NCBI GenBank assembly: GCA_903813345.2
Contig: CAIIXF020000002.1
Coordinates: 12,730,150-12,794,149, forward strand
Length of the DNA: 64,000 nucleotides
From: Owenia fusiformis
Lineage: Eukaryota > Annelida > Polychaeta > Sabellida > Oweniidae
Direction of reading: 5' to 3'
This document shows positions 6,356 to 64,000 of the stretch, in pieces. Under the pieces are notes generated by a model. It saw nothing but the letters and a program-made list of their open reading frames with translations, did no database searches and was not told where the DNA came from. How positions within the stretch are numbered: position 1 is the first letter of the stretch; each line of letters starts with the position of its first letter. A program made the position numbers and the translations under genes.

Positions 6356-7425
6356 GCCGCTACCGTGGTATTGTTATTGTTAAAGCCTGGTATAACCGTG
6401 ACAATGCTATATTGTATTGCAAGGCCTGTCATGACCGTGGTAATGTTAAAGCCTGATATGGCCGTGACAATGCTACATGTATATTGCAAGGCTTGTCATG
6501 ACCGTGGTAATGTTAAAGCCTTCTATGACTGTGGCAATTGTTGTAAGGCCTGTCATGACCGTGGTAATGTTCACGTTCTTGAATGAGATTAGAATTATAG
6601 TTTGTGGAAGTGAATTATGAGTTAAAGTAGTAGTACATGTAGTAGTACACTGTAGTAGTCTAGATTTACATATTTAAGGTAGATAAACGATGAAATTTTT
6701 CATTACAGTATTCTCATGCAACTAAATGTATATTAATATAACCATTGTCACGGTCATATTAGGCTTTAACATTACCATGGTCACGACAGGCCTCGCAACC
6801 ATTGTCACGGTCATATCAGGCTTTAACATTACCACGGTCATGACAGGCCTTGTAGTCCACCCGTGTAGCTCAGCGGTAGCGCAGGTACCTCTTACGCAAT
6901 AGGTCTCGGATTCGATCCCCGGTTCAGGCAAGACTAAATTTGCTTGTTTGCGTGAAGTACTTCAGGGTGTTTGACTGAGTGGTCTGCAACTTGTACAAAA
7001 AGGCTGTGGTGTGTACTTGTATGTCTATGTATAAGTGCACATAAAAGAACACAGGGCTCCTTTAAGGAGGGGTTTCTGGGTCTATCTTCCATGTTAATTA
7101 TGTAAATTACGACCGTATATATACGGGACATACCCAAGAGGTATTGCTCACCTTCATTGGTGGTAAACAAAATACAATACAATACAATACAATACAATAC
7201 AATACAGGCCTTGCAACCATTGTCACGGTCATATCAGGCTTTAACATTACCACGGTCATGACAGGCCTTGCAACCATTGTCACGGTCATATCAGGCTTTA
7301 ACATTACCACGGTCATGTCAGGCCTTGCAATATAATATAGCATTGTTCCGGTGATATCAGGCTTTAACATTACTATGGTCATGACATGTGATATAAAATG
7401 GCATTGTCACGGTTATATCAGGCTA
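6356..7425. mobile_element. Foldback element with tandem-repeat arms
   Basis: The left array (about 6356-6575) carries ~60-bp units of the type GTCATGACCGTGGTAATG, TTAAAGCCTGATATGACCG, TGACAATG. The right array (about 6735-6852 and 7204-7425) carries the same units in reverse complement. The inverted arms are thus themselves tandem arrays, as in Drosophila FB/Galileo-type foldbacks. The right arm is split by a SINE. ORFs across the arrays are repeat artefacts. Confidence 0.7.
6853..7203 (+). mobile_element. tRNA-derived SINE, 351 bp, with 10-bp TSD
   Basis: The head is tRNA-like, with an A box (TAGCTCAGCGGTAG, about 6866) and a B box (GGATTCGATCCC, 6908-6919). An unrelated body follows, then an (AATAC)n tail of about seven units. 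It is flanked by the direct repeat ACAGGCCTTG (6843-6852 and 7204-7213). Insertion lies within the right arm of the foldback array. The A and B boxes would form an internal pol III promoter. Confidence 0.85.
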
Positions 7426-18880: not shown

Positions 18881-19488
18881 GTAAGTTCTCTACCTATAAA
18901 TCTGTAATCAATTTAGCCTTTCGTTTAATTTGCAGCAAATCAAATGAAATCAAAGGTCATATGTTTGTATTATTAGAGCCACATGATAAATAATGTTTGT
19001 TCCAAGGTTCACAGTTTAGTTTGTAGAAGTCTATACTTTCTTTAACAGAGCATAAATTCTCATTTTCTCTGTCTTAGTCACATATGATTTATTAAATTAA
19101 AGGGGCAATAAGGACTGTAGAGAAAATAGGAAAGTTTTTTCATTTTTTCTGAGCTATCGAGGCAACATTTGGTTTAACGTCTTCTTTGACATACCTATTT
19201 TCTTAAAATGTATGGATAAATTATCAATTTCAGCATTAAGAAGTGTAAATTCAGTTCAAAGCTTCAAAAAGGGGACTTCCACTTTTATATTTTTAAGATC
19301 CACCATGTTTCAAGAGGAATATCAGCTAAAATAATGTTTATCTAAGGGGTTTCTTTGTAGATAATAAAAATAGATGTTAGTCTTGATGAAATATCCAAAC
19401 TTAAATATATTTTGACACTGGTCAAATTATTGCACCTTTAAATTAAACAGTAACATGACAGCATAGCTTTGGGAGTCTTCCGATGTTA

Positions 19489-20645: not shown

Positions 20646-23600
20646 GTAGGCTCATCTTTTACAATATTTGGATCATAGACCTTGTCATTTCTAAATCTTG
20701 CCGATTTTCTTGCATCTCGTCAGTTAACCACATAAAAGTGAGTAGAATTCAGTCCAATTGGACACATCAACATTTCTCCCTATTTTGTCTTCTAAATCTG
20801 ATGAGCCAAGCGATTCTAAGAATGTGATGTCACCAGAACAAAATGGACTGACCTGTCCTTCAATATTTATATCCATTTTCGAGTATATCTGTTTCTAGCT
20901 ATAATTCAGGTAAATATTGCATTTAAGAAATATAGACCAAAGAGCAGGGGTAATATTGTCGAATACACCCCGCAGGGCTAGGCACAAACGTTTTCTGTAC
21001 CCCAAACGACCGAAGGGAGTGAGGGGTTTGAAAGCTTTTCTGCCTAGCCCTAAGGGGTGTATTCGACAATATTACACCTGCTCTGAGGTCTATATTACGA
21101 TTCGAACATGAAAACTCACCAACATGTTTCAAATATTCATTATGGTCCACCATTACTACGGCCCACCGTTATGACGACACACATTACATATATTACCAGG
21201 GGTTTTGTTCGCGAATATACCCCGGGTGAAATGTTGACTTTGTTTACAGTTTATAGAAGGCGTGAATACAGTCATGTTCGAATGGGTTTTAAAAAACAAG
21301 TTTTTTTTACATCTCACTGGAGGTCAATTGAATCAAAACCCAAAATTGTTGATCAATTTTTATAAGGAACACAGGGACACTCTAATCTTTGCAATTATAA
21401 ATGAATATAAAAGTTTTGGTCGACATGATATTATACCTTTACATTGAAATTGTCATTGTACTTTCAGAAGATCAAAGTTAGGATACATTTCAGTTGGTAA
21501 ATTCAATTTATGTGATTATTTTCCTGGTGTATTCTTGTTTGTGGCTTTCTGATTTCTATAAATGTTAGTGACTGTTCCAGTGTTTCTGTTTCACCATTGT
21601 ATTACATGATACAAGTTGTCCAAGTCCCTTCTTCTATGTGTACCAAATGCCCTGCCACTACCCACAAATATTCTACCTACATTACACAAATAAAAATACA
21701 TAAACCCAGTTCAGGATCATCAATTTGTAATGAATTAGATATCATAAGTGTTTATGATTTAAATGAACTTATGACTAGAACTAATGCAAACTTGAATTCA
21801 ATAGATGACTGGATAAAAGCAAACAAACTTTCACTTAATATTGGCAAAACCAATGCTATTCTATTTGGACCCAAAAAAATCAAACAAATCTGAATCTTAA
21901 AATACGCAATGAGAACATAAATTTCCGGGAAAAATTGACTTTCTTGGAATTATTATTGATAAAAACCTGAAATTTAAAGAGCACATAAAATCTGTTGAAA
22001 CGAAGATTTCCCGCGTCATTGGTTCTCTTTATCACATTAAACATCTACTTCAATTAGACAGTTTCAAAACAATTTACTACTCATTGATACACTCTCAATT
22101 AAATTATTGCAACATAATCTGGGGTAACACATTTAAATCATTTTATGATCGTCTACATAAACTGCAGAAACAATTCTTAAGGCTAGCTTTAAATAAGGAT
22201 AGACTTTCTCACTCCACTCCCCTATTTAAAGATCTTAAAATATTAAATATTTTTGATGTCAACAGATATTGTACTGGTCAGTTCATGTACAAAATCTTTA
22301 ATAAGCACCCCAGTCTTCCAAAAAATCTATTTCAAGACTTGTTTGATATCATCATCATTACACAAGACAATTGCATTATTTTCATATCCCTAAATGCTCT
22401 AAACTTTCCCTTCGCTATCTAGGTTCTTTATCTTTGGAATGGTCTACCACATGATATTAAAAAATGCTCCACTCTAAATATTTTCAAATCTTCATATAAA
22501 AAACTACTCATCTATCGATAATGTATAATACCAATCAGATCATACTGTATTGTTGATTTTATACTGGTACCTGATTTTTATATTGTACATCCTTAGATAA
22601 ATTGTTAATACCATTTTTATATACCTACATGTAACATAATATAAGTGTTTTCTTTTATATGTAGTCTAGATGTCATTTTAATAATTTCTGTTAAACCGCA
22701 ACATATACCCACTAGGGTGTCTAGCGGCTTGTTTTTATAGTGTATATTATATAAGAATTATGAAATAAATAAAAATGAATTGAATTGAAATTGGCAATTT
22801 TATCCAGACAGGCTTGTGTTTGTATTGTTTTGCCAGGATTGTTTGGCTTGTTTTGTGTTGTTTTGCCAGGATTGTTTGGCTTGTTTTGTGTTGTTTTCCT
22901 CCCTTTAGCCAGATAAAAAAATTCTGTCTGTATGCGTATGGATGGTTTGATCACAAAGGTTTGGTCACTGTGTCCACTCCTAATATTTGAATAAGTGATT
23001 TTATGAACTCAGCTAACTGCCAATCATTGAGATCATTCCCTTTGGTGTATGGAATTTTGTGATGAGTGCATCTTATTCTTACAGCTACAGAGACACCGCC
23101 TAGCAGAATGTATTTCAATAGCCTCTGTATATTTTAATGATTGATTATTCACTCTTAGAATTAAAGTGATATTTGGAAAGCAATGTCGGTGAAGGTTCTA
23201 TATTAGTGAAAAAAACACCGTTCTTTGACTTGTTTGCATGGTGTCAAAGTCCAGGGGTGATTAGCATGATGGCGTGACTCCTACTGGCCTTGTTTATATA
23301 CATTTATCTATAGATTCATTACTTCACAGGAATGCCATCTTTTTTATTATTTTCAAACAGATATTATTTGAAGCTACCCTGCTGGTAATTTAGAACCTAG
23401 AAATATTTGCTCTCTTTTTATGTCCCCACCACATAGTGTGGGGCCATATTGTCGGCCTAGGCGCGTCCGTCTGTCCGTCCGTACGTCCGTCCGTCCGTCT
23501 GTCCGTCCGTCTGTCCGTACGTCCGGGAGTTTTCTCCAAAACCGCTTCAGATATCACCTTCAAATTTTCAGGGTTAACTTATGAGTGCATACAGATGTGG

Positions 23601-26600
23601 ATGAAAAAATTTTAACTCGATACCTACTTCCTGTCGGCCATTTTGAAGTCAAATGCTAAAATCCTTGTCTGCAAACTTTAAGAAAAACGGCTTCACAGTT
23701 GCTTTTAAAACTTTAACATCTTGTTCAGCTCACTTCATTCTAGATCTGATTAGGTTTTGGACCTGTTAGCTCAGTCATGTCAGCCATTTTGAATGTCTTA
23801 AGAAAAGTTAGCGCACGATAATACTTTGTATCATATTGAATGGTGTTTTTGAGTTTTCATACTTTAAGTATTTAGTAGCTTTATAAATAATTTCAGATCT
23901 ACTTTGTTGTAAAAGCCTATGTTATTGTTAAAAGTAGTAATATGTGATAATTTTGTAAGAAGAAATCAGCAAAAACACATAATCACTTTTTTATTGTCGG
24001 CCATTTTGGATTTTTCCGTCCTAAAGTCTTGTCTGTGAAGTCTTGTCTACGTGTTTTCAGGTGAACCGTTTGGTGGATCTATTTCAAATTTTCAGGGATG
24101 ATTCTTAGTATAAAAATCTAGATCTGATTTGTTTTTTGGCATTCTGGGTAAATGTCAAGGCAGCCATTTTGGATTTTCCGTCCTAAAATCTTGTCTGTAA
24201 AGTCTTGTCTACTCGTTTTCAGGTGAACCGTTTGGTAGATCAATTTCAAATTTTCAGAGATGATTCTTAGTATGGAAATGTAGAACTGATTAGTTTTTTG
24301 GCATTCTGGATAAATGTCAAGGCAGCCATTTTGGATTTTCTGTCCTAAAATCTTGTCTGTAAAGTCTTGTCTATGCATTTCCAGGTGAACCGTTCTGTAG
24401 ATCAATTTCAAATTTTTAGGGATGATTCTTAGTATGAAAATCTAGATCTGATTAGTTTTTTGGCATTCTGGATAAATGTCAAGGCAGCCATTTTGGATTT
24501 TCCGTCTTAAAATCTTGCCTGTAAAGTCTTGTCTACGCGTTTTTAGGTGAACCGTTTGGTAGATCAATTTCAAATTTTCAGGGATGATTCTTAGTGTGAA
24601 AATCTACATCTGATTAGTTTTTTGGCATTCTGTGTAAATGTCATGGCAGCCATTTTGGATTTTCTGTCCTAAAATCTTGTCTGTAAAGTCTTGTGTACGC
24701 GTTTTCAAGTGAACCATTTGGTAGATCAATGTCATATTTTCAGGGATGATTCTTAGTATGAAAATCTAGGAACAGATTAGTTTTTTGACATTCTGGGTAA
24801 ATGTCAAGGCAGCCATTTTGGATTTTCTGTCCTAAAATCTTATCAGTAAAGTCTTGTTTACATGTTTTCTAGTTAACTGTGTGACGGATCAATTAAAATT
24901 GTGTTGGTAAAGTCTTGTCTACTCATTTTCAGGATAACCATTTGATGGGATCACCCATTGGTGGGGACATTTTGTACACATTTGTGTTCTTGTTTACCCT
25001 TGGTATGCGCAGCTAACGAAAATTGACTGGTACGGGTCAAAAGCTGGACCGGTACGGGTTAACAGTTTTATTTGAATTTAAAATAGCCATAACTTGCTCA
25101 ATATTGACTTCCTCGTGTCAAATTTGAAATATATGATGCCTGCTTGCCTGCCTGCTTGCAGCAAGAAGACGGACCGGTTCGGGGCAATCTGCTTGCAGCA
25201 AGAAGACGGACCGGTTCGGGGCAATAGCTGATGAAATTCTTTGTCACAAAGTTTGGCATTTTTTATAAAATCAAACGCGCGTCATTGAAACTCACAAGAT
25301 GTAAATAGCATGTCATTTACATCATACCTTGATGGGGAAAAATAGACCTTATATGTTAGAAGTACTAAATAAAAGTTATCGTGAAAATAAGACAGTCGTT
25401 CTCGAGAGAAAAGAGCATAAATGCGCATTTAGAGAGTTTTGGTCCGTTTAAAAATCTGTAAAAAATTGGGGTACTTAAAAGCATCGGGAGGCATCATATA
25501 TTTCAAATTAGACACGAGGAAGTCAATATTGAGCAAGTTATGGCTGTTTTAAATTCAAATAAAACCGTTAACCCGTACCGGTCCAGCTTTTGACCCGTAC
25601 CGGTCAATTTTCGTTAGCTGCGTATACCAAGGGTGTTTTTAGAAGCTAAATAAACTATTGGAAGGGGCATGGAAAGAGTGATCTGGTGATGGATTTCAAA
25701 TTGAATTTTTAATTTTCTGTGTCATTGAAATTTCTAAAATAGGGGATAACAAGAACAAATTGTAGAATAAACAAAAACTTATTATCATTATGCTCCAAAT
25801 ATTGATGTCTAATATTCTGAGGCCAATGAACTATAATTGAGTTCCTTCTTATTTATCAATTCAATTAAACATCTTCCCCTAATTTATATCCGTATTATGG
25901 GTTTTCAACCCCTTTACATATAGCAGAAGTGAAATATATTAGAGACTACAAAGATTACTTGGCAATAAACTGTTTCTGTGTTTATATGTGTTTTCAGCGA
26001 TGTGGTTATGGTGCTGGAGAGGATGCGGATTGTGTGTGGTGTGATCCCAAGGAACATAAATATAGCGATGCCTATGAAGCTGATATATGCAAAACAAGCT
26101 ATCATTGTCATACTTTCCATAGGATTTATATTATAAATGCAACTAGTGAATCAAATGCTGAGTGTGGAGAGTGTGAATATGGGTATGTACATTATACATG
26201 TAGAGAACAAGTTAGAAAGTATATACAGTATATATACATATTGTTAAATACCACATGTGATCAAAACCACCCCTTTGGTTTCAAGAATAGTACTACATAT
26301 CATCAGAATTTGCAGGAATGAATATAATTTACTGAGCAAGTGTAGTGAGTGAGCTCAAATGTTGATACATATTTTTAGAAAACCTTTTTATGATAATGCC
26401 AACATTGGTCAACTACATATGAAAGTTTAAATTCATAATTTGTGGAGGCATAGTCTTAAATATATCTGTACATGTGTGTGAAAAATTTGTAGATATGTTG
26501 AATCTGAAATGGAAGATAATTTTGAGTGTGACCCTTGTGAATGGAGACGAAGTGATCCAAGATGCGAGATATATTTGATAGCAAAGGACACAACAACAAC

Positions 26601-29600
26601 AACAACAACAATGTCGAAAGCCATCACAGTGGAAAATGTCACACACCATGATCAAACTGAAAACACATCAAGAGAACTGAATAATGAACCAGGTAAACAC
26701 TCATAGGTTAATGATGTTTTCATGCAGAATGCATCAATTTTATAAAATATGTATACTGTATTAGGATTACATGTATGTTAAAGTGCAAATTTTGATCATT
26801 TGTCATGACTTAAAAATTGTTTGAGGCATTTTTGGAAAACGTAACCTTTGAAAAATAGGTTGCTGGTTATTCAATTTACAAATATTTGAATTTCCTACCA
26901 TTTTACCAGCAACAGTTTAGATTTGAAGATCATCAAAGTTGTAATGAAATGGCATTAAGGACCAATGAATAGCTTCTACTTACCATCACAACAACACTAG
27001 CGATATCTAGCTTGTGATATTACCCCCACAAAAAAACTCAATAGTACAGTGTAAAACAAAGTAAGGAGGTCCTTTTGAGGTCTTTTTTCAAATCATTTTG
27101 CATGATTGTTGATTTAGATTATAATAACAATACAGTTCATGTCCACTGTAGGATGTATCTTTTAACCCTGGTACCCATAGTTTGTACAGCCTTCCTCTGA
27201 TTGATACCAAACTACATGTAACCACTTGAGTATGATTCTTAATGTTAATAGGTTCTGGGACAGACTTGACAGCGATACTGATTGCAGTTATACTAGTAGT
27301 GGGAGCTGTGTTCTCCATATGTATCAGTTGTTGGTGTTATTGGAGAAATAAGCCAAAACGCATTTGCTTCAATGGACCATCACAAGATCCAGAAAAAGGT
27401 ACTATAATATCAGTTTTCACTGAGGGACGATATCACAGTATAGCCCCAACCAATAGGGAATGATATAAACACAACCTTGTTTATAGAAATCGTTATTATT
27501 TGAATTGAATACTCTGAAATTAATACTGTTTTTAAAGAAGCACCACTCCTGCACTTTTCCACCGATCATTTGTAGAAAATAGTGAAGAACAATCAGGATG
27601 CAAAAGGGTTAATGTTTGAAGATTACATTTGTTTTTAGTCAGTAATTTTCCAATTTCTTTTTAAAATCAATTCAACATATTATTAAGAAATATATGAAGA
27701 AAATTTATCTTTAGAAATTTCCTAAGCTTCAAAACAGGTCATGGAGAGTTGAAAATGATTTAGCTGTCAAGACTATTATATATTTAAACAGGATGAGCTG
27801 ATTTTACAGAATTTCAGACAACCTACACAAAATCATACACACACTTTAGTCACACATATAATGTCATACCCATAATAATAATAAATTAAAATATTCAAAA
27901 TACCCTTCATCCTGTTATTTATTTTAGGTTCAAGAGAAGAAATAACTGAGAATGAGCTTCTTCTAAAAAGGTAAATTGCTAAGTTTATTTTATTTTATAT
28001 GCTTGATTGTTGAAGGTCTATGTATGTTTGTAAATCTGTTTACTATACACATGCTATAAAATATGAGAACTATTTAAAGTTGCTTATCTTAGCATAATCA
28101 TATTTTCCATTCTTGTAGTAAAACAACTATATACATTTTTGTGTGGTATTAGATATTCTTATATAAGTGAATATTATTTTTATTATATTTTTGCAATCCT
28201 ATTATTAAAATCTCAATGGGTGCAGCGCCCATTTGTTTTAATGCTTGGAATGTCACTGTGGATCTTGTTCAGAATTACATCTTAAGAAACATGAACAGGT
28301 GAAGTACGCGATTTTGAAAATAATCACGGTTATGATGATCATATCCCAAACATTCTGCTTTGTCCCAACGATGTCACCATCAATGAACGTTCCAGCATGG
28401 ATTCAGTTGTTGATGCTTCGGGTAAGAAGCTACTAGACCTATGCAGGTCATCTAATTTACGAATTATAAATGGCAGAGTACTTGGGGACTCGCCCGGTAG
28501 ATTCACATGCCATAAATGGAACGGAAGCAGGTAGTTGACTATAGTATTATTCATGAAAATATGCTTCCAGATATTATATACTTCAAGGTTCATGATAACC
28601 TTTGTGTGCTCTCTGATCATTGCAAGATTTCTCTATTAATGCAAGTACGAATACCAAACGACCACGGTAACAATCGGACTAAAAACAATGGGCATACTAT
28701 CAAAATGAAACCATGGGAAAAATGGGACGCCCGTCGAGAGGTACAATTTAAACGAACCTCTCCAATAATTTAAAAACACGAAATGATATAAATGAACTCA
28801 ATTACAAGCTAAACGACACCTACAATATTGATGATTGTATTGACAAGCTCGAAAAAATTATAATTAACACAGCAAAAAGAAAACTACAAAAAAGTTACCC
28901 TGTAAAAAGAAAGGGGGCTCGATATCTCAAAAATGGTTTGATAATGATTGTAGTATACTGAAAAGAAAGGTTAAGTCAATTGGAGCAAAACTAATAAAAT
29001 CACCAAATGATAATATGATTAGAGGTAATTACTTCAAGTGGCTAAAGGAATATAGGAAATGCTGTAAGATAAAACAGAGGAAATTTAAAACTAATATGAT
29101 AAATAAATTAGAAGAACTTTATGACAATGACCCTAAAGAATATTGGTCCCTACTTGAGCAACTAAGGCACAAAGACGGAAACAATAAGTCCGCGTATATA
29201 ACACCAGAGAAATGGCATGAACATTTTTCCAAATTATTTGAAAAGGATAAAAATACCGAAATCAACAAAAAAGTCAACGAAATTGTTAAATCAATAGAAA
29301 ATGACAATCATTTTGACGAACTTAGCTTCAGAATAACAGAAAACGAGGTTTACAAGGCAGTTAAAGGAATATTCCTTGCCAAACCATCTCTCTCCTCATA
29401 TGGTAGCTATAACCATATATGCTTGCCATGTTTAGCAAAACACGCAAAAATGTTTTGATATGGTCAAATTTGATCACTTAGAAATATGATGCTCAATTCC
29501 AGTAAGCTGCCATCTTTTAAAATTTCACAAAGGAAGTGATGTCATCGACTCTCAACTTTGCATATAGCATTAGGTGAGGAGCTATTAAGAATTACAAAAC

Positions 29601-32600
29601 CAGCTAAATATTCTTTTTCAACTTTGTATCTTATTTAATCCTTCTGAAAATCTCTTCTTTTATTCTAAGTTGACAAGCCCTGAAAATATTTTTGCACAGA
29701 AAGTAATGATCACTTGTCTAGAAGTGATTTTGTGCTACTTTCCTATCCTGTTATAGGCAAGGTTATAGAAGTTGAGAGTTGATGACATCACTTCCTGCAA
29801 GAAATCTTAAAAGATGGCAGATCACTGGAAATAAGCACTGGATTTTTAAATGATCAATATTGACCATATTAAAACATTTTCCCATGTTTTGCTAAATATG
29901 GAAACTATATATGTGATTATAGCTACCATATCAAGAGAGAAAGGGTCTGGCAAGGAATATTCCTTTAAGCAATTAAAGAACAACAAGAGTTCGGGTTTTA
30001 ACGGCATTAGCTATGAAATGATTAAAGCGTCATACTCAGTTTTAAATAATGTTATCTGTAAAATGTTTAACCCTTTCACGACGATGGGCTCCATATGGAG
30101 CCCTATTATGTAATACCTTTCAGGACGATAGGCTCCTTTTGGCACCATAATTTTTGTTTATATACATCGATGAAATGATAATATCTCCAGTTCTATTCAG
30201 TATTTTTACACCAAATTTTGACAAGTTGTTCTAATACGATAGTCCTTACTAAAAATGTATTTCAGTGATAAAATTCAAGGTATAGGTCTCTGGGCATAGG
30301 TAATTTTCAGTTTTCCCCTAAAAACTGCTCTTACTTATCCGTCACCAGGGCCAACATTTTCCTCTTATATTCACGTCGGGAAAGGGTTAACATATTACTA
30401 AGCAAAACAGTTTTCCCTGAGAAATGGAATATTTCATCAATCGTTACGTTATTTAAGAAAGGAACGACGAAAGACCCTGGAAATTACAGAGGTATTTTTA
30501 TTTCTGATTGCTTTGGCAAATTATTTTCAATAATTTTGTATAATAGACTTTACGCCTTTGTACATGACCGAAAAATAATATCGGAAAATCAAGCCGGTTT
30601 CACAAAGAAAGCACGAACAACTGACCACATGTTCATTATACGAACCCTCGTAGTTAAATATGTAGTAAGTGAAAAAGGGAATATATATATGTGTTTTGTT
30701 GATTTGAGGAAAGCTTTCGATACGGTATGGCATGATGGATTATTTTTGAAACTTTTGCAATCGGGGGTAAACGGTTTATTCTATAAAATGATAAAACATA
30801 TATATTCACAATCAAAAGCAAGAGTCAGACTAGATAATGAGGGTTTATTTACCAATGAATTTGAGTGTAACAAGGGAATAAAACAGGGGGACCCCCTAAG
30901 TCCTCTTCTATTTAATATATATATAAATGACATTATTAAAACATTAGATCTCAAAACAGACCCTTTATTAAATAATAAGCGAATTGGAAGCCTCCATTTT
31001 GCCGATGACTTAGTAATTATCGCATCCTCAAAAGATGAAATGCAAACCAAATTGGACAAATTAGAAAAATACTGTGAAGAATGGCACTTAAATATCAACA
31101 CTGATAAAACCAAAATTATGGTAATGAATAAAAATGGTAGACTTATTGATAATCACTTCTTTATAGGAAATTACAAAATAGAATCTGTTTCACGATACAT
31201 TTACCTGGGAATGGAATTAAGCATAAGTGGGTCAATGAGACCTGCAGCCCAGCATGTCAAAGACAAAGCTGAAAAGGCAAAATTTAAATTATTAAGTCTA
31301 ATTTCTAATGGTAATATGAAACCATCATTATGCTTAAAACTATTTGATCAACTCATAAAGCCCATATGCCTCTATGGATCTGATATATGGGGTATGGGTA
31401 TCTTAAACTCGAGTAAAATTAAAAAAGACCCACAATGGGCATAAGAAAAGGGATATGATGGAATAACATTTGAATCTCTTCATATATCATTTATGTAATC
31501 GATACTCGGTGTTAACAGAAAGGCCAGTAATGACGCTACACGAGGCGATTTAGGTAGGTTTCCACTATTTATTTCTTTGTTTTATCAACAAATGAAATAT
31601 CTTAATCATATTAACAATAAAGGAACCGACTCGCTTCTACGTGAAGCCCTTGAGGTAAATAAACAACTGACAGATATGAATAAACAATCATGGCTCACGC
31701 ACATCAATGATGTACTTAAATATATTTACAATGGTACTTCACCAAACTATTTAAACTTAAAACCAAGAGAAATTAAGAAATTACTGGAAAATAGATACAT
31801 ACAATTTTGGGAAACTAAAATAAAATCAAATAATGGTAAATTGAGGTTTTATAAGATAATAAAAGCAAAATGGAACAAGGAACCCTACTTGGATTTAATC
31901 AAAAATGAAATAGACAGAAATAACTTGACAAAGCTAAGAATTAGCGCACATAAATTAGAAATCGAAACAGGTCGTTACACAAAACCAATTACCCCTATTG
32001 AAGAAAGAAAATGTTTAATGTGTAACAAGAAAACCGGTTCAGAATGCCATTTCCTATTAGAATGCAATAAGTTAAAAGATGTTCGGTCAAGTTACATGGA
32101 TAAAATAAAAAAACACTGTCAAAATTTAGAAAACATGAATAACATGGAACATATATTAATGTTTCTATTTAATTCAGAGGGAATAATATTAAATATACTA
32201 GCAAAATATATATCTAATATTTTTATCGAGAGAGAAAAAAACACGAAATGCATCCAATAAAATCTTGCAATGATCAAGCACCCTTTGATTAGTTAATATA
32301 CTATATAGATAATTAGTTAAGCTTTTTCATTTTTTCTGTTTAAGCTGTACACTTTGCCCAAATGTGGGATACAAGTATAATAAAGCTCATAATAATATAT
32401 TTGAAAGATCTATACTCTAGCATGATGTACTTGTTACATGTACTAGAATGCACCATTAAAGGGCCTGGAATGTGGTAGCCTGAATTCCAAGTCTAGGATA
32501 CAAGACTTGGGTTCATTATAAATCATCCACAATAGATTGAGTCATTTTCATAATTCTTTTCACACATTGCAAAATATTTTGTACAATATCACCTAAAAGA

Positions 32601-35600
32601 ATGATGTTTTATTTTACATTGATTCCTTTTTGCAAGGGTTCTCAATGAGGGTAATTGCACTAAATCTTAAAATAACCATGCACTCTGGTCTGGTCTTCAA
32701 TAATGAATATTATTTAAAATAATCTTCTGCTTTTTTGGAATTGGATATATCATGCCTAGCTATTACTACTAGCTTTATGATTGTGTGAATTTCATATCAA
32801 ACAAAATTAATAATATAATTTGTCAGAATAAAGAAAACTTCATCCATTTTGGCATCCATTTAATAGTAGAACTTTTGCATCCACATATATTCGCTGCTGT
32901 GTAATTAAACATGTAATTTGAACCAATGAAATCTATGTTTGATTTGGTGGTTGAAACTGATACAAAAAAGCAAAAACTGACATCCCCAGTGAAGTAATTA
33001 TTTCTAATGTTGATTTATTAGACCATATCAATAATTCCCAATATGGCAATTTACTTCCATGTGAATACTAATAGCACACTGTTTTTCAACAATATCCTCA
33101 TTACTGCAAACATTTTGGAAAATAATAGACCTTTATTATCCTTTTTTATATCTTTTTAACATTTATTATTTAAAAAGTAATAGAGTGTTTTTATTTTATT
33201 ATCTTTAGTAATGGCCAATGTGAAGAAGCTATCCCTAAATCTGGGAAACCAAGAGTCCACACAGTGTCCGAATCTGATTCCCATTGTGATACTCTTAACA
33301 TTGACTACTGCCCACAATGTCAGTGCAATGACTGTGGTTGGAAGCAGAATGGTATTTGTGGACGCAGCAGTCGGAGATCAACAATGGATGATGAAGTTAG
33401 ACCAGAATCATTCATGACAAACTCTTCAGTATCAAAGAATGAGACCAGTACCTTGGTTGATACAACCAGACTAGTTCCTAATCCAAATATGGAAATGGTT
33501 GCTCCTAACCCTAAGGTGCTGATTAAACAACGCTCTGTGGAAATGAAAATCCAAGAGAAGGAGAAGGAGAGCCGCCAATGTGCCATTGGTTTGGTCTGTA
33601 ATCAAGAAATACAGTCATTCCCTTACATGAGCTCAATGAATCCTGAGCCAGCTTCTTCGAGGCCCTCAGAACTTGAATCAGTAAATGGAGAGTTATCCTT
33701 AGAAACAGTCATATCAGGTAAATACTAGAAAAGTACAACTACTGTAGGTTTGCTTGTTGTGTACATGATCTATTGCATTATTGTAGCGATTTTATATTTA
33801 TCCACATAAAGTTGAAACCACTAGCTATTTGACAAATGGACATAATTGGCGGTCCATGTTAAATGGTCAGCGAAACATTGGCCACATTTTCAATTAATTT
33901 CTTTCTTAATTCATTTGTATTTTATTTTAGAAGCTAACAACTTGGCTAGTAATATCCCAAATGATAATTCACTTTGTGATGAGCAACGACAACCTCGTGT
34001 TTCAAGTGGGGGTTTCTCTGCTAATAGCAGAGATGAGAGACTAAGGCCACCGATATCCCATGACTCTGATGCTACAATTCCTAAGAAGAGACTTGATCAG
34101 GGAAATGCTAGAGTCACTCCTCAGCCTCATCGTGATGTCAGTAGCTTTAAAGATGCCTCCCTCCCTAATATCGATGTCCGAACGGAAGAGTCAAGACCAA
34201 TTTCTCAGAGAGAGCAAGCTTTGAAATGTGGTATCGGTGATCAATATGGTGAAGAAAAATCCAATGTGGCCATCAATGGGAACAATAACCATATAACAAT
34301 ATACCAAAACCCACCAACAAATCTGCTTCAAACAACGAATCAGACAGAAAGCCAACCAAACTCCAAGGTAAGCAATTCTCCATTATTTCACATAATCTCC
34401 ATTGGAGACAACCAATAATTTTGTACTGTTTCATTTCATATTCAGTAAAACCTGTCTAATCCGAACACCATTGGGACCGGATAAAAGCGTTCAGATTAGG
34501 AGGTGTTCACATTTCAAGGTTTTTGCATTCGCGATATTCCGGATTCTGAAGAAATATGAACACATTCTCGGTAAATATCTATAGTTCTTTTGACAACATA
34601 ACTTTATGGCATTCCAGAAATGTGAAAACTCGATTTAAATGAATCTAGTCATGCTGGAAAGCCCCATTATGAATGAGACCATTCAAGATTTTTTCCCAAA
34701 ATTTTGATATAATGACAATATTTGAGCAATTTTGTATGAAACATCAGAAATTTTATGAAAAGTGTTCAGATTAGACAGGTGAGTTTTTCAAACATGACTG
34801 TTCACTGTTCAAATTGGGAGGTGTTCACATTTCAAGGTTTTTTTAACATGGGAGTCAATGGAAGGAGAAAATGGGACCAAAAAAAGGTGTTCAGATTGGG
34901 AGGTGTTCGGATTAGCCAGGTGTTCAGATATACAGGTTCTACTGTATATGCAACATCAAGTTATATGTTAAACAAATGCTAAATACCCTAAAAACGATCC
35001 TTGGGAACTAAATCCTAAAAACATGTTATGAAATAGAAATCGATGTAAATTCTTAGTGATAAAATATAGAAATCTAATTTAATTTTCTGTTTATCAAAAT
35101 ATTTAAGAATATATTTCAAAATATATTAGGGTGCTTCCTAGAATTTATTTCTCAGGTAGGTGCAAAATTCACATTTTCTCACAATCAAATATTTGCAAAG
35201 CTATTTGAAATCTCGCTTAAACTTACATTTTCTTTTATTTTATAACATATTTCAATTATATGTATGATTTTCTCCCTAAGAGAAGTTTGATATACATAGT
35301 TATTCCATTTTATTTGATTTCCAAGGATCCCCATTCAGACTGGGTTAAAAATTCTTTAAAAGTTGATTTATTCTTTTAATGGTCATATTTTTAAGATATG
35401 CCAATGGAGTTTTACAATGATCTCTCAAGAAAAACAGTCAAACCTGTAAAGTGGAACACCTCTGTTAGTGGAACACTTCAGAGTCCCAAGACCAATTGAC
35501 TTAATGTTAAATGCACCTCTTTAAGAAGAACACCTTCCTTGTGGAACACGTTTTAGAGTCCCAAGACCAACTGACTAAATGTTAAATGAACTTCTTTAAG

Positions 35601-37292
35601 TACATACCTCAAATGTGGCCATTTTTCCCCATTAAAAAGTTTTCATAATAACCATGAGGTTAAATACAATTTTTTTTTTAGATTCGGGCTGAGAAGGAGA
35701 AGGCATACCAGGAAGCATTGAATAAGTGTAAGTGGTAGTACTGATATTTATTATAGCTGTTAGGCGATGGCCTGTAAAAGATTTGGGCCCTTTTTGAATT
35801 TTTGGCCTATTTAAAAATTAGGCCTACCATTGGAAGATAATGCCCACTAACATCGCTTTGTTATCTAAAATGGCCAGTTTTAGTGGAGGAGAGTAGACTT
35901 TGGTGGTAACATGTATTTGGGGTTTTAGGGCTAAATGATAATCATATTTCTATACCAATTATCAGGCTACGTTACAAAGAACATAACAGTAATTCAAGAA
36001 AAGCAATGGCTTGTGGCCGCAGTACAGTTTATTGCAATGTGATGTAATTCAGGTACATGCAAACATGGACAGTAACACAATACGTAGGCGAGACACGCTG
36101 TTTTAAAAGAACGAGTTGCACGCAAGACATTAGACACTTATGAATATTCCATTAAAATGGACTCCTTCTGCAAAATTAGTTCTAATTAAGTCGATTGATT
36201 TTCGGAGTTGTTTACACCATTAAAACCTCAAAATTTTGAGGAGCTCTTAATTGCAAGGCCTAAAAGGTATGCAACAACTCTTGGACCTATCGACTGTGTG
36301 ATATAAAGTCTAGTAATGAAAGGAATTTACCTTGCGGAGCCAAGAGCCAGAATGATGTGTACAAACCTAACAACACAGCTCACTAAACAGCTAATAACAA
36401 TGCAGCTCGCAGCTGGATCAAAATCGTGTTCGATTTTCACGACAAATACATGTACTACACCCCACAATAACTATAGAAATTATTTATATTCTAAATTCGT
36501 AAACTCTACCGAATATAAATTACAATTATTACCACCTTGCTGGGCCAGTTCTAGGGGTTTTAGTGCTAGTTTAGAAGGCGTTTATTTTACTATATCGACC
36601 TGAGAAATGTGTGACGGAGTGGTGGTCCATATGGACCGGTCTAGAATATATTCTGGACCGGCAATTTTCCCTGGGAAATTAAATATCGTTCAATGCGTAA
36701 GATTTTCTTGCTGTTTCAGTCCTGGTCGTTAACGGTGGTAATAATACTAATAACGTCATTTCTGCGAGCGTAGAAATGACGTTATTGTACTATTAATATA
36801 TCTGTATGCCACATTGATTACATAGTCAGATATACATGTAGAAATGATAATGATAAATATATATTTGTATAACACAGTTAAAATTGAGGGTGAGGTGAGA
36901 ATGTTCATACAACAGGCCAATCAAATGAAATGTAAATCTGATTTAATGTGTAACCTTGCATACCTGCTTTTTTCTAAATAACAATTTCATGAAATATATG
37001 TGTTGTAGGCAATGGCTGGATGTTAGACAAGCTGAGCCTTGATGAGAGAGACAGGATTTGCGTTGATATGGATCCAGAAAGACCCAATATTAAGAATTTT
37101 AAACATTTGGGTGAAAAATTTGGATACAGCAATAATGAACTTGACTGTTGTGGTGGATGTAAAGGTCTCCTTCATAGTCTGATAGCAAAAGCTGTACCAG
37201 TCACAGACATTCTGAAGGAGATTCATAATATACATAGATATGATGTTCGTAACTATTTAGTTGACATCATATTGAAGAAAAATGAAGAGTGA
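20433..37292 (+). CDS. EDAR-like TNF receptor with death domain (gene 1, spliced)
   Basis: Nine exons (20433-20645, 25998-26182, 26493-26692, 27252-27398, 27928-27970, 33209-33717, 33931-34367, 35682-35727, 37009-37292), each with AG/GT borders and matching phases, join into 2064 nt: 687 residues plus TGA. Order: hydrophobic signal-peptide part (about 1-15), cysteine-rich domains (about 16-150), Thr-rich stalk, membrane helix (about 206-229), a cytoplasmic tail of about 365 residues, death domain (about 600-682). The second cysteine-rich domain (RCGYGAGEDADCVWC...AECGECEYG) and the death-domain core (KNFKHLGEKFGYSNNELD) match EDAR/TNFRSF19/EDA2R style; EDAR with its death domain fits best. 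Such receptors bind TNF-family ligands at the cell surface and signal through death-domain adaptors and TRAFs to NF-kB; that role is inferred. The first exon with the start codon is unresolved. Introns carry two LINEs and many MITEs. Confidence 0.85.
20929..21096. mobile_element. Hairpin MITE in gene 1 intron
   Basis: A 168-bp near-palindrome. AATATAGACC...GAGCAGGGGTAATATTG at the left is mirrored by CAATATTACACCTGCTCTG...GGTCTATATT at the right, with 'gtcgaatacacccc' and 'gggctaggca' also paired. Overlapping ORFs on both strands are mirror artefacts. Confidence 0.75.
21110..21740. other. Intron sequence, no supported feature
   Basis: Lies between the hairpin MITE and the LINE fragment in the first large intron of gene 1. 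It contains 'gttcgcgaatataccccggg', reminiscent of the neighbouring MITE. No coding support. Confidence 0.4.
21745..22785 (+). mobile_element. 5'-truncated LINE (CR1/Jockey-like), dead
   Basis: Encodes, with frameshifts, the C-terminal part of a non-LTR reverse transcriptase: DLNELMTRTNANLNSIDDW, KANKLSLNIGKTNAILFG, then FLGIIIDKNLKFKEHIKS, then SLIHSQLNYCNIIWGNTF...LHKLQKQFLRLA. The catalytic FADD part is missing (5' truncation). It ends with AAATAAATAAAAATGAATTG-type short repeats. It lies in the sense direction in a gene 1 intron. The motifs fit CR1/Jockey-group LINEs; the exact clade is uncertain. Confidence 0.8.
22817..22890. repeat. Short tandem duplication (~33-39 bp)
   Basis: Two copies of TTGTTTTGCCAGGATTGTTTGGC-type sequence, each followed by 'ttgttttgtg', just downstream of the LINE tail. 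Confidence 0.8.
22900..23415. other. Intron sequence, no supported feature
   Basis: No recognised exon or repeat. Confidence 0.4.
23420..24970 (+). mobile_element. Pearl/HINE-like repeat, second family (ATGTCCCCACCA)
   Basis: Perfect 12-bp inverted repeats ATGTCCCCACCA (23420-23431) and TGGTGGGGACAT (24959-24970) bound the element. The left copy forms a hairpin (CCCCAC-CACATAGT-GTGGGG). A (CCGT)n tract (about 23466-23524) follows, then about six tandem units of ~162 bp with 'ggcagccattttggatttt' and 'gtctgtaaagtcttgtct'. The insertion point is T|T with no TSD. A ~160-bp core with (ACGG/CCGT)n is the hallmark of bivalve pearl elements and resembles DINE-1-like Helentron derivatives. It sits in a gene 1 intron. 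Confidence 0.75.
24150..24880. repeat. ~162-bp tandem core repeats
   Basis: Unit starts ('ggcagccattttggatt') fall near 24160, 24320, 24483, 24645 and 24808, a spacing of 160-164 bp. The minus-strand ORF across two units is a repeat artefact. Confidence 0.85.
24997..25633. mobile_element. Foldback element rich in ACCGGT/TACGGG motifs
   Basis: Arms of about 150 bp: CCCTTGGTATGCGCAGCTAACG at the left and its inverse (CGTTAGCTGCGTATACCAAGGG) at the right. They include paired 'ggtacgggtcaaaagctgg' and 'caatattgacttcctcgtgt' blocks. The interior holds a 36-bp tandem duplication with GACGGACCGGTTCGGGGC (about 25150-25225). It lies 26 bp after the pearl-like element in the same intron. Confidence 0.75.
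25998..26182 (+). CDS. Gene 1 exon: CRD2
   Basis: Acceptor 'tgtgttttcag', donor GG|gtatgt. It encodes RCGYGAGEDADCVWCDP...ICKTSYHC...AECGECEYG. The CGYG...C..C...AECG.C layout is that of the second cysteine-rich domain of EDAR and TNFRSF19. An N-glycosylation site (NATS) lies in the loop. The exon ends at phase 2. Confidence 0.9.
26493..26692 (+). CDS. Gene 1 exon: short CRD3 and stalk
   Basis: Acceptor 'aatttgtag', donor CCAG|gtaaac. It encodes FECDPCEW...PRCEIY, a short half-domain with three cysteines as in EDAR (C..C.......C). A stalk with seven consecutive Thr (an ACA run of about 21 bp) and several Ser/Thr/Asn follows, likely O-glycosylated. The exon ends at phase 1. Confidence 0.85.
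27252..27398 (+). CDS. Gene 1 exon: transmembrane helix
   Basis: Acceptor 'gttaatag', donor AAAG|gtacta. It encodes a single hydrophobic segment (LTAILIAVILVVGAVFSICI) followed by SCWCYWRNKPKR, a Cys- and base-rich stop-transfer region with possible palmitoylation sites. The topology is type I. Phase 1 to phase 1. Confidence 0.9.
27928..27970 (+). CDS. Gene 1 micro-exon: juxtamembrane tail
   Basis: A 43-bp exon with acceptor 'tattttag' and donor AAAAG|gtaaat. It encodes GSREEITENELLLK. The SREE tetrapeptide fits the loose TRAF2 consensus [PSAT]x[QE]E, and ENELLLK resembles the ENEQLL stretch of EDAR. Joining 27398 to 27928 and 27970 to 33209 keeps the frame. Confidence 0.75.
28297..28770 (+). 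pseudogene. LINE endonuclease remnant
   Basis: The C-terminal part of an APE-like endonuclease with at least one frameshift near 28520. The catalytic N-terminal half is missing. Confidence 0.65.
29365..29964. mobile_element. 600-bp MITE with TTAA target duplication
   Basis: TTAA flanks at 29361-29364 and 29965-29968. Perfect 16-bp ends AGGAATATTCCTTGCC extend into a longer imperfect inverted repeat ('gatatggtagctata', 'catgtttagcaaaaca'). There is an inner second set of inverted blocks ('gaagtgatgtcatcgactctcaac'). TTAA targeting is typical of piggyBac and Kolobok superfamilies. Non-coding. Confidence 0.85.
30071..30386. mobile_element. 316-bp piggyBac-like MITE (TTAA-CCCTTTC)
   Basis: TTAA at 30067-30070 and 30387-30390. 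The ends CCCTTTCACGACG and, in reverse complement, CCCTTTCCCGACG match. The TTAACCC start is typical of piggyBac-type termini. A direct repeat near the left end (CTTTCACGACGATGGGCTCC / CTTTCAGGACGATAGGCTCC) is visible. It interrupts the LINE RT frame. Confidence 0.85.
31577..32260 (+). pseudogene. LINE C-terminal domain fragment
   Basis: A 227-codon frame downstream of the RT stop, ending CIQ*. It has a C..C...H....C motif (RKCLMCNKKTGSECHFLLEC) as found at the C-termini of many APE LINEs. It is out of frame with the RT part, hence a decayed copy. Confidence 0.8.
32400..33200. other. Intron sequence, no supported feature
   Basis: AT-rich remainder of the intron before the exon at 33209. Confidence 0.5.
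33209..33717 (+). CDS. Gene 1 exon: cytoplasmic tail with Cys cluster
   Basis: Acceptor 'ttatctttag', donor TCAG|gtaaat, 509 bp. It encodes a polar, disordered-looking tail with a compact cysteine group (CDTLNIDYCPQCQCNDCGW...GICG) that could bind zinc or be lipidated. This is unusual for an EDAR-type tail. A charged KIQEKEKESRQ stretch and Pro/Ser-rich MNPEPASSRPSELES follow. Phase 2 in, phase 1 out. Confidence 0.85.
33931..34367 (+). CDS. Gene 1 exon: cytoplasmic tail, Asn/Gln/Ser-rich
   Basis: Acceptor 'tttattttag', donor AAG|gtaagc, 437 bp. Low-complexity polar sequence with many Arg/Asp pairs and a distinctive NVAINGNNNHITIYQNPP motif before a Gln/Asn/Thr-rich end. No known domain is recognised. 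It ends at phase 0. Confidence 0.85.
34443..34944. mobile_element. Pogo-like MITE in gene 1 intron
   Basis: The ends CAGTAAAACCTGTCTAATCC and, in reverse complement, CAGTAGAACCTGTATATCTG are followed by GAACACC on both sides. Interior repeats of 'gtgttcagattrggaggtgttc' are present. It starts 75 bp after the exon donor at 34367. Confidence 0.7.
35435..35625. mobile_element. Partial pogo-like MITE
   Basis: Starts CAGTCAAACCTGTAAAGTGGAACACC with internal duplicated 'agagtcccaagaccaa-tgacttaatgttaaatg' blocks, as in the 19489-19671 copy. The right terminus is missing. Confidence 0.55.
35682..35727 (+). CDS. Gene 1 micro-exon
   Basis: A 46-bp exon behind a strong polypyrimidine acceptor (ttttttttag) with an excellent donor (AAGT|gtaagt). 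It encodes IRAEKEKAYQEALNK, a short charged helix linking to the death domain. Phases 0 to 1 fit both neighbours. Confidence 0.75.
35760..36740. other. Intron sequence with repeat-like blocks
   Basis: The region holds 'ttttggcctatttaaaaattaggcct' inverted bits near 35800 and 'tccatatggaccggtctagaat' near 36620-36660. The 95-codon ORF at 36316 has no splice or family support. Confidence 0.35.
36749..36786. repeat. Perfect 15-bp palindrome with CRE-like half sites
   Basis: AATAACGTCATTTCT, an 8-nt loop GCGAGCGT, then AGAAATGACGTTATT. Both arms contain TGACGTTA/TAACGTCA, close to the CREB/ATF core. It lies 220 bp upstream of the death-domain exon. Function unknown; it could be a MITE centre. 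Confidence 0.7.
37009..37292 (+). CDS. Gene 1 last exon: death domain and stop
   Basis: Acceptor 'tgtgttgtag'. It encodes a death domain: LDKLSLDERDRICVDMDP, then NFKHLGEKFGYSNNELDCC, then LLHSLIAKAVPVTDIL and DVRNYLVDIIL, ending KKNEE and TGA. The W/F-x-x-L-x-x-x-x-G core and the amphipathic helices match EDAR-type death domains. The domain is complete at about 90 residues and C-terminal, as in EDAR. Confidence 0.9.
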
Positions 37293-61792: not shown

Positions 61793-61882
61793 AAGCTTAA
61801 ACATTAAATTCAGTAACTAATTAACTAGCATAATCTTTCAAAACATTATAATGATTGAATTTTTTCTCATTTTTTACTGCAG

Positions 61883-62122
61883 ATTATGCTTCCAGCCATA
61901 TGTTTTGCACATTTTATTACTTTATTTCAGCTTATTTCCCTTGTTTTGATCTCACAAGCTGTAGGGCAAGATTGTCAGGATTTTCATGATTACTCTAAAA
62001 ATGAAACAGAGTGTGGAAAATGTGAGAGATATCAGTGGATATCCTCACCAAAAGGAAATAAAAAGGAGCCGTATTGCTTGCAGTGTCCTATAACCTGTGG
62101 TCTGGGGCGAGGACTAAATAGG
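61883..62122 (+). CDS. Gene 2 exon: signal peptide and CRD1 of a TNF receptor paralogue
   Basis: Acceptor 'ttttactgcag', first ATG at 61886, donor AATAGG|gttagt, ending at phase 0. It encodes a hydrophobic signal peptide (MLPAICFAHFITLFQLISL, then VLISQAVGQ) followed by DCQDF...ECGKCERYQWISSPK...EPYCLQCPITCGLGRG. The cysteine layout and the RWIS/QWIS-P...PYC..C match gene 1 exon 20433-20645, with the same phase-0 end. An internal acceptor (tttatttcag, ending 61930) could give a shorter form starting at LISLVL. The rest of the gene lies beyond the window, so whether it has a death domain is unknown. Confidence 0.75.
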
Positions 62123-62129
62123 GTTAGTA

Positions 62130-64000
62130 GATGTTTTATATTACTGAAGCAAGCCTTACATGTATGTAGTAGCTTTCCAACCTGCTGCCTTATCCCCAAT
62201 ACTTAAGGAGTTTGTTCACCAGCAAGAATTTACAGGGGCAAATTTTTTAAAATATCTTAGTTTGCTTTTGAATTAATGAAGTTCTGTTTTGAATCAGGTT
62301 AAGTTAATGGGCTCCTTGCTATTATTCACATCTCATTGTAAATAAGCTCCTCCGTCCAGTTTTTGAAAAAAATTAGTTCATGGTCGAATTGATTAATTTA
62401 TACTTCAAGTTTTTTTTGGTACAGTTTATCTTTTTTCAAGTTTTAATACTTTTCCTATCTTGATTTTCAATTGTTACTTATATATTTAATGATCATCATC
62501 TTGTGCAATAAAAATAAGCATTAAATTGAGCTCATCATGTATTCATCATTCCTGCTTTTTAGAGTGCCAACATTGGCTGGTAAGCTTAAATGTTTGCATG
62601 CGTTTTATTATTTTCAACATGCTAAGGCATTAGGTATAGTTTTGGGGGAAAGTTATTGGATGTTATGGGCCTGTTAACCCTCTTACCTCCGCCACTAGAG
62701 ACATTATATTTAGATGGTTAAAATATTTAGAAAAATAATGGTAAGCATGCTGCATGAGTCCTGTTACCCGTTAGATTAAGCATGAAAAATTTAAATTGCA
62801 ACCAATCTCTAAAACTAGGAGCCATTATCCAAACATATACTTTAAGGTTCACTTGTATACCCTAAATTACATTGTGTAAAGTGTGTGATGTTTCAAAGAG
62901 GAAGGACTGCTTGGGTGTGGTACAAACTAAGTTCAATAAATATATGGTGTCTATGTCTGGCATGGTGACCTTTAATCGCATCACCTCATAGGCAAAAATG
63001 CCCTAATTCACGTCACCATACTAGTCAATGGGCAAAAGGGCAAACGCCTGACTTTTTATCTCGAGTTATGGATTTATGTGGCCTCACTGGCCTATCTGAG
63101 GTTCTAAACCTATGTCTAAGCTACATCTTGACACTAAACTCAATAGGGGCCAATCATCTACTTTTTGAAATAATTGGTCAATTGTGACACTACCCCCTCT
63201 CTCTGCAGACACAAATTGAAATTCACAAAAATGAAGGCAAAATTAATACGCCACTTGACTCGAAATTTTCCTTCAGATAACCCAAATAAACGCATTTTCA
63301 GAAGAAATGGCATGTTGCCATTGCAAAAAGATTACAACTGTGCCTACATACTAGCTTACTGACTCGTCATGATCACAATTGTGTTGGGACTACATTTATT
63401 TTTGAATACTACTTTTTTCTATTCAGCGGAAGTGACGTATTAGGGCATTTTGGCCTAATAGCCACATGGTTGGATGATTTCTGGCTTTAAATTGCGTTTT
63501 TTTAATTTACTAGAGTTTTTCAAGTAGTTTTGTGCAGTTTAAGAATATTCTGACAGCAATTATGAAAAATATGGCTACTTCATTACCCCTGGGGTCATTT
63601 TTCCAAGAACCCAATGGTTTTCCTTTAAATTTGACTAGTTTTTCATTTACATCATGAAATCCACTGCCTGATGGTGACATTTTTCAGTATCGTGTCAAGA
63701 AATTGAGTATTTTATTGCATATTGCGATTTTTAGCCAAAATCACTGAACCGTGAACCAGAAAATTGGACAAATTTGGCCCACTTTTTGGCAAAATCTTAC
63801 TAAAATCATCACTTTTTCATACTTTATTCCATTCAACAACCTCCTGATTTGAAAAATGATGACAAATTTGATCAGTTTTGACTCTGGCCTAGAGAATTGG
63901 GACTTTTGAGATATTTTTTAGCTCGAATGTAGTCATTCAGAGTGAACAAATGCATTAAAAATTGACACTTAACTCACCAATTTCTGACTGCACCCCCGAT
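62130..64000. other. Intron of gene 2 / no further exon seen
   Basis: I looked for a CRD2-like exon and found none before the window end. A weak inverted pair ('aaaatgccctaattcacgtcac' near 62996 and its mirror near 63430-63452) suggests a foldback relic. Confidence 0.4.

Follow-up and report, generated by a model that had tools for sequence, protein, structure and literature searches.

How did one LINE copy in the genome of Owenia fusiformis come to hold two TTAA-bounded inserts with 98 bp between them (29969-30066), what are these inserts, and does their closeness call for a special cause? We analysed the 64,000-nucleotide stretch of DNA that carries them, called the window here, together with its own genome (498 Mb, 525 contigs). 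The right-hand insert is called M2 and its left-hand neighbour M1 (Table 1).

M2 begins with TTAACCCTTTCACGACG and finishes with CGTCGGGAAAGGGTTAA. Both ends read CCCTTTC, as part of CCCTTTC[AC]CGACG, and the two arms (17 nt counting TTAA, 13 without it) differ at one position, being 94% complementary. M2 thus displays a TTAA target-site duplication and a terminal inverted repeat of the 12-19 bp class with the CC[C/T]T terminal motif; CC[C/T]T ends and TTAA are named as piggyBac hallmarks in excerpts of PMC2872659. It is also short, non-coding, multicopy and even in length, as is typical of a MITE, and in the ORF list of the window nothing of 60 aa or longer lies wholly within it. A sequence-only reading had proposed a separate piggyBac-like TTAA element at this place. 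Its coordinates proved exact, the CCCTTTC ends agree with that proposal, and M1 and M2 gave no mutual match when the window was compared with itself at E 0.01.

Table 1. Features of the locus, in positions of the window
Feature	Position	Strand	Evidence or remark
Host LINE copy, non-LTR retrotransposon with reverse transcriptase (RT), 5′-truncated	28290..32397	+	RVT_1, E 1.6e-37; alignment with sister copy L076
M1, neighbouring TTAA MITE with ~200-bp arms and TTAA+AGGAA ends (Kolobok/T2-like)	29361..29968	+	Terminus counts; intact copies
LINE segment between the inserts	29965..30070	.	6 TTAA in 106 bp, counting the two insertion sites
M2, piggyBac-type MITE	30067..30390	+	324 bp, both TTAA counted; terminal inverted repeat, genome copies
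M2 left TTAA, target-site duplication	30067..30070	.	Letters; joined single-TTAA query unbroken in 17 other LINE copies
M2 left terminal inverted repeat, CCCTTTCACGACG	30071..30083	+	
M2 perfect 18-bp palindrome, element bp 16-33	30086..30103	.	Putative transposase (CRD) binding site, by position relative to piggyBac left end bp 17-33 (PMC7351741, excerpts)
M2 left-end motif, second imperfect copy, CCTTTCAGGACGATAGGCTCCTTTTGGCACC	30116..30146	+	Read from letters; copy alignment
M2 right terminal inverted repeat, CCCTTTCCCGACG as read on the - strand	30374..30386	-	
M2 right TTAA, target-site duplication	30387..30390	.	Letters; same empty-site comparison

Both inserts interrupt a retrotransposon whose RT region, right of M2, gives the RVT_1 match of Table 1. 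The sister copy L076, which aligns with the window's copy in three pieces (97.1, 100 and 98.6% identity), carries both an endonuclease and an RT domain (Exo_endo_phos, E 2.4e-10; RVT_1, E 1.2e-35), as a LINE family should. When M1 and M2 are cut out so that a single TTAA remains where each had been, the frame from 28868 stays open for 550 aa from stop to stop; counted from its first ATG it has 501 aa and a stop, that is, the 502 codons that the sequence-only reading had announced, and clean removal is thereby confirmed. The restored junctions translate as ENEVYKAVKQLKNNKSSGF and VICKMFNILLSKTVFPEKW, which are RT-like by look. The 502-codon frame is nevertheless only part of the LINE protein, since the copy is 5′-truncated relative to its sister and holds small indels and further frame breaks besides the two inserts. 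Indeed, the frame of L076, which is 925 aa long between its stops, starts about 530 nt upstream of the start of the alignment. From this truncation, judged against the one sister L076, we infer that the window's LINE copy was dead on arrival; the MITEs therefore need not have inactivated it. Comparison of 100-base stretches revealed no target-site duplication of 8 nt or more around the LINE copy.

That the LINE copy came before the inserts is shown by empty sites. Searched with a 407-nt query in which both junctions are joined, the window's own genome gave 25 candidates with 26 matches. Sixteen span the whole query at 98-100% identity and one covers positions 67-407 at 99%; three are pieces of the window's own LINE copy, and the other six are uninformative, five of them beginning right of the M2 site and one (80%) covering the inter-insert stretch only. 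Thus all 17 other LINE copies that cover both junctions lack the inserts, one of them being 100% identical over the 407 nt. Since these copies cross both junctions uninterrupted at 98-100% identity, M1 and M2 are private and recent insertions which stand outside the LINE consensus, in line with the sequence-only reading, and both MITE families were mobile after the young LINE copy had inserted. That the MITEs belong to the LINE family and were copied along with it has next to no probability: the 17 empty copies refute it, M1 and M2 are both present at many other places, and we found no support for it.

M2 is a member of a multi-copy family. Its terminus pattern, TTAACCCTTTCNNGACG, occurs 352 times in the genome, against 2 occurrences for a reversed-pattern control. 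The M2 search gave 423 candidates, of which the best 40, including the window's own, scored 94-100%, with 38 of the 40 at full length; a more diverged copy, L001, stands at 85%. Eight copies were aligned, the window's own plus one each from L001, L002, L004, L005 and L007 and two from L012. Not included were L003, L006 and L008, which are these same places reached from the opposite end, and L009-L011, whose copies are interrupted. TTAA stands at both ends in all eight, one of the two by construction in the seven fetched copies, which were found through an exact search for a TTAA-bearing end. The 25-nt flanks show no evident likeness to one another apart from those of the two L012 copies, which lie 880 bp apart with near-identical flanks and represent a duplicated stretch. 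Single-base variants of the second left-end motif occur in seven of the eight copies; in L001 the motif is mostly deleted. Another M2 copy, at L002, has an RT fragment (862-1095; 36% over 80 aa) about 0.4 kb away, which may be a case of M2 near another LINE. A scan of viral_contigs with the M2 terminus found seven contigs with a single terminus each; beyond the terminus there were only two matches at E 0.59 (L065), which we take to be due to chance.

The assignment of M2 to the piggyBac superfamily is strengthened by its interior. The perfect left-end palindrome is whole (18 bp) in four of the eight aligned copies, 16 bp long in three and 12 bp in one, and the right end of M2 has none. We take piggyBac base-pair numbering to begin after the TTAA, and the positional match with bp 16-33 of M2 depends on this. 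Excerpts of PMC7351741 describe for piggyBac, beside the TTAA and a short terminal inverted repeat, a 19-bp palindromic internal repeat, and cysteine-rich domains of the transposase which bind bp 17-33. The left ends are therefore alike, with a palindrome at about bp 16-33, but the repeat is 19 bp long and found at both ends in piggyBac, and 18 bp long and confined to the left end in M2. Such a repeat is described for piggyBac itself and is not required of all members of the superfamily. Indeed, it is missing from the majority of 25 further piggyBac terminus candidates in this genome.

Two of these 25 candidates do have it. At the piggyBac locus L035, TTAACCCTTCTCGAACGG precedes a perfect 18-bp palindrome that occupies bp 16-33, and the terminus at L060 has a palindrome centred at the same place as those of L035 and M2. 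Full pairing (8 of 8 bases) was found at these two candidates out of 25 as against 2 of 599 TTAA sites in the window (that of M2 among them); seven paired bases were found at two more of the 25 as against 34 of the 599. The piggyBac loci L035-L037 share the TTAACCCTT end with M2, but 4 of 17 end bases differ, as do the palindrome letters and what comes after them. A right end was not found at these three loci.

The neighbouring insert is of another kind. The arms of M1 are 83% identical, and its ends, TTAAAGGAATATTCCTTG, combine a TTAA target with AGGRR termini, which it has in common with the Xenopus T2-MITE/Kolobok elements (terminal motif AGGRR, in excerpts of PMC6004289). Judged by these letters, the ends of M1 fit T2-MITE/Kolobok. 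Its exact termini occur 793 times in the genome and not at all in the control, and four intact copies found by exact ends are 97.0-97.7% identical to that of the window, with unlike flanks. The one long pair of M1 ends that we looked at (L070, 5.6 kb) was considered as an autonomous partner and rejected, as it is an M1 copy with an insert, whose longest ORF has 84 aa. At L075 (106-137), the outer TTAA of an M1 copy doubles for an oppositely pointing 14-nt M1-like end; no further M1 sequence matched beyond that opposing end at E 1e-20.

Could M2 belong, like M1, to Kolobok, another TTAA-targeting superfamily? The TTAA target is common to both, but M2 ends in CCCTTT rather than AG/RR and its palindrome is positioned as in piggyBac, which makes this assignment most unlikely. 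We are confident that M2 is a non-autonomous MITE of the piggyBac superfamily that was mobilised in trans into a TTAA of a pre-existing LINE copy; M1 probably came independently, and their closeness is best ascribed to chance.

On this piggyBac assignment, M2 would have been excised from some other place by a piggyBac transposase acting in trans, the C-terminal domain of which may bind the palindrome, by analogy with piggyBac. It would then have been inserted at a TTAA within the RT region of the already resident LINE copy, leaving a TTAA at each end. M1 would have arrived separately through a Kolobok-type transposase that likewise targets TTAA.

Transposases of the piggyBac type are abundant in this genome: PF13843 has 113 matches (best E 1.5e-83), with none in 14 control genomes. 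The sequence-only reading had suggested looking for a piggyBac transposase with matching terminal repeats. No transposase lies between M2's ends at the 50 loci examined, which are part of the 113 matches, overlap in some cases, and in 30 cases comprise just about 1.5 kb of flank; the nearest TTAA terminus among them is 3 of 17 bases off that of M2. Since none of these loci bears M2's ends, we infer the mobilising transposase, which may be one of the genome's piggyBac transposases or a lost relative. A decayed piggyBac locus, L034, matches the interior of M2 (125-217 of 324) at 82% over 93 bp. This stretch (1084-1176 of L034) lies about 0.3 kb from the decayed transposase, and the locus, where M2-like ends were not seen, is perhaps a relative of the source of M2.

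Three places with M2-end pairs 0.8-3.2 kb apart (L009, L010 and L011) were considered as the autonomous partner and discarded: they are M2 copies with other sequence inside. Their longest ORFs are 110 aa in L009 and 102 aa in L010, and a tblastn search of the three inserts with nine piggyBac reading frames, of which those of L013 and L016 are only 95 and 75 aa long, gave one match at E 0.28. The insert which breaks the M2 copy of L011 (351-817) has a poly-A end and repeated AAGTTGTTCTTA and is SINE-like.

Why, then, do the two inserts lie so close together? The sequence-only reading had offered a TTAA-rich hotspot or open chromatin, with random placement as the check. The termini counts imply about 176 M2 and 397 M1 copies; if these were evenly spread, a hand reckoning puts the expected number of pairs within 100 bp at about 0.03 for the whole genome, so that the pair is in itself mildly surprising. 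Among the matches listed for one contig (21 M2 and 60 M1 places), the nearest M1-M2 pair is 53 kb apart. A scan of the window for inverted repeats (TTAA plus a 14-nt repeat, at most two mismatches, 60-1200 bp apart) gave 15 pairs, whereas four of 30 first-order Markov controls gave a single pair and the others none. We set aside nine pairs within a tandem-repeat region (6.3-7.4 kb) and a further one that is nested; of the five remaining candidates, only M1 and M2 were confirmed as genome repeats. When two elements were assigned at random to TTAA sites in the window, they fell within 102 bp of each other in 0.4% of trials; with five elements, two did so in 3.4%. For a pattern picked after the fact, these simulations are weak evidence against chance. 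The simplest reading is chance on a TTAA-rich stretch: the pair is one of very many possible TTAA-family pairs and was noticed post hoc, so no special cause is needed.

The TTAA-rich spot itself is real, at 6 TTAA in 106 bp, insertion sites included, versus one per 106 bp across the window; its local density places it among the top 2.2% of TTAA sites in the window (neighbour count 6 versus a mean of 2). A true insertion hotspot, in which this cluster draws TTAA-targeting transposases, is nonetheless very unlikely. The same stretch stands without insert in 17 sisters at 98-100% identity; therefore the sequence alone does not make a strong hotspot, and of the earlier proposal the richness stands and the hotspot is weakened.

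Attraction by the locus, with intronic open chromatin drawing both elements irrespective of the local letters, would accommodate the empty sisters, as the inserts occur in this copy alone among the LINE copies covering both junctions. Gene-like ORFs lie on both sides of the LINE, a transmembrane-like one upstream and a death-domain-like one downstream (PF24979, E 0.039, below the Pfam cut-off), and a location within an intron is plausible. In mouse cells, piggyBac vectors favour highly expressed genes, according to excerpts of PMC5333637. The low genome-wide expectation and the two-element trials also speak for such an attraction, but the five TTAA elements of the window bring the figure up to the 3.4% given above and the pair was chosen post hoc, and we regard this explanation as unlikely. 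Given that the same sequence stands empty in the sisters, a double hit that was not due to chance would point to the state of the locus of this LINE copy as having drawn two unrelated TTAA transposases, which we hold to be rather improbable. If true, the LINE family would offer one and the same target at 18 or more places on the chromosomes and could act as a natural sensor array for measuring how chromatin steers TTAA transposons.

The two inserts form a clean nested insertion, with a young LINE copy, two younger MITEs and exact empty sites in 17 sisters. On this evidence, MITEs of the piggyBac type and of the Kolobok type have both been mobile recently in the genome of O. fusiformis, and the near-identical LINE copies are possible replicate targets for measuring TTAA site choice. 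M2 itself is ordinary: a real and well-resolved nested insertion of a familiar type.

Similar elements are known from other animals. CMITE family I and AmiPB1 of the coral Acropora, as far as excerpts of PMC2872659 describe them, resemble M2 in their TTAA duplication, CCCTTTCCC ends, small size and lack of coding capacity, and alleles with and without the insert were reported there. AmiPB1 ends in CCCTTTCCCGTCC; the CMITEs are about 100 bp long with another interior, whereas M2 has 324 bp and its own CCCTTTC[AC]CGACG ends. In piggyBat (excerpts of PMC11707139), as in M2, the left end has repeated imperfect palindromes and the right end no matching one, but there are three units in piggyBat and two in M2, and the motif letters are unlike. 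A literature search with TTAACCCTTTC gave a match relevant by title, and one with AGGAATATTCC as a transposable-element sequence found none. No literature joining piggyBac, MITE, TTAA and nested insertion was found, and a broader search gave none on point by title.

The window holds several further features. Scans for tRNA genes and Rfam families were empty. Three other TTAA-bounded candidates are a 225-bp one at 750-974, with the terminal inverted repeat TACTGAGTCCCCAG and one mismatch; a 355-bp pair at 19092-19446, with a 14-nt repeat and two mismatches; and a 513-bp inverted-repeat candidate at 25059-25571, in which a second TTAA pair is nested (25078-25552). ORFs at 21516-22422 resemble, on visual inspection, the 3′ portion of a further RT element, with no significant Pfam match. 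At 25869-37292 and 61859-62206, ORFs are cysteine-rich, transmembrane-like and weakly death-domain-like, being of TNF-receptor type by eye with Pfam scores below cut-offs. Finally, arrays of related 57-67 bp repeats (CACGGTCATATCAGGCTTTAACATTAC) occupy 6378-7367 in both orientations.
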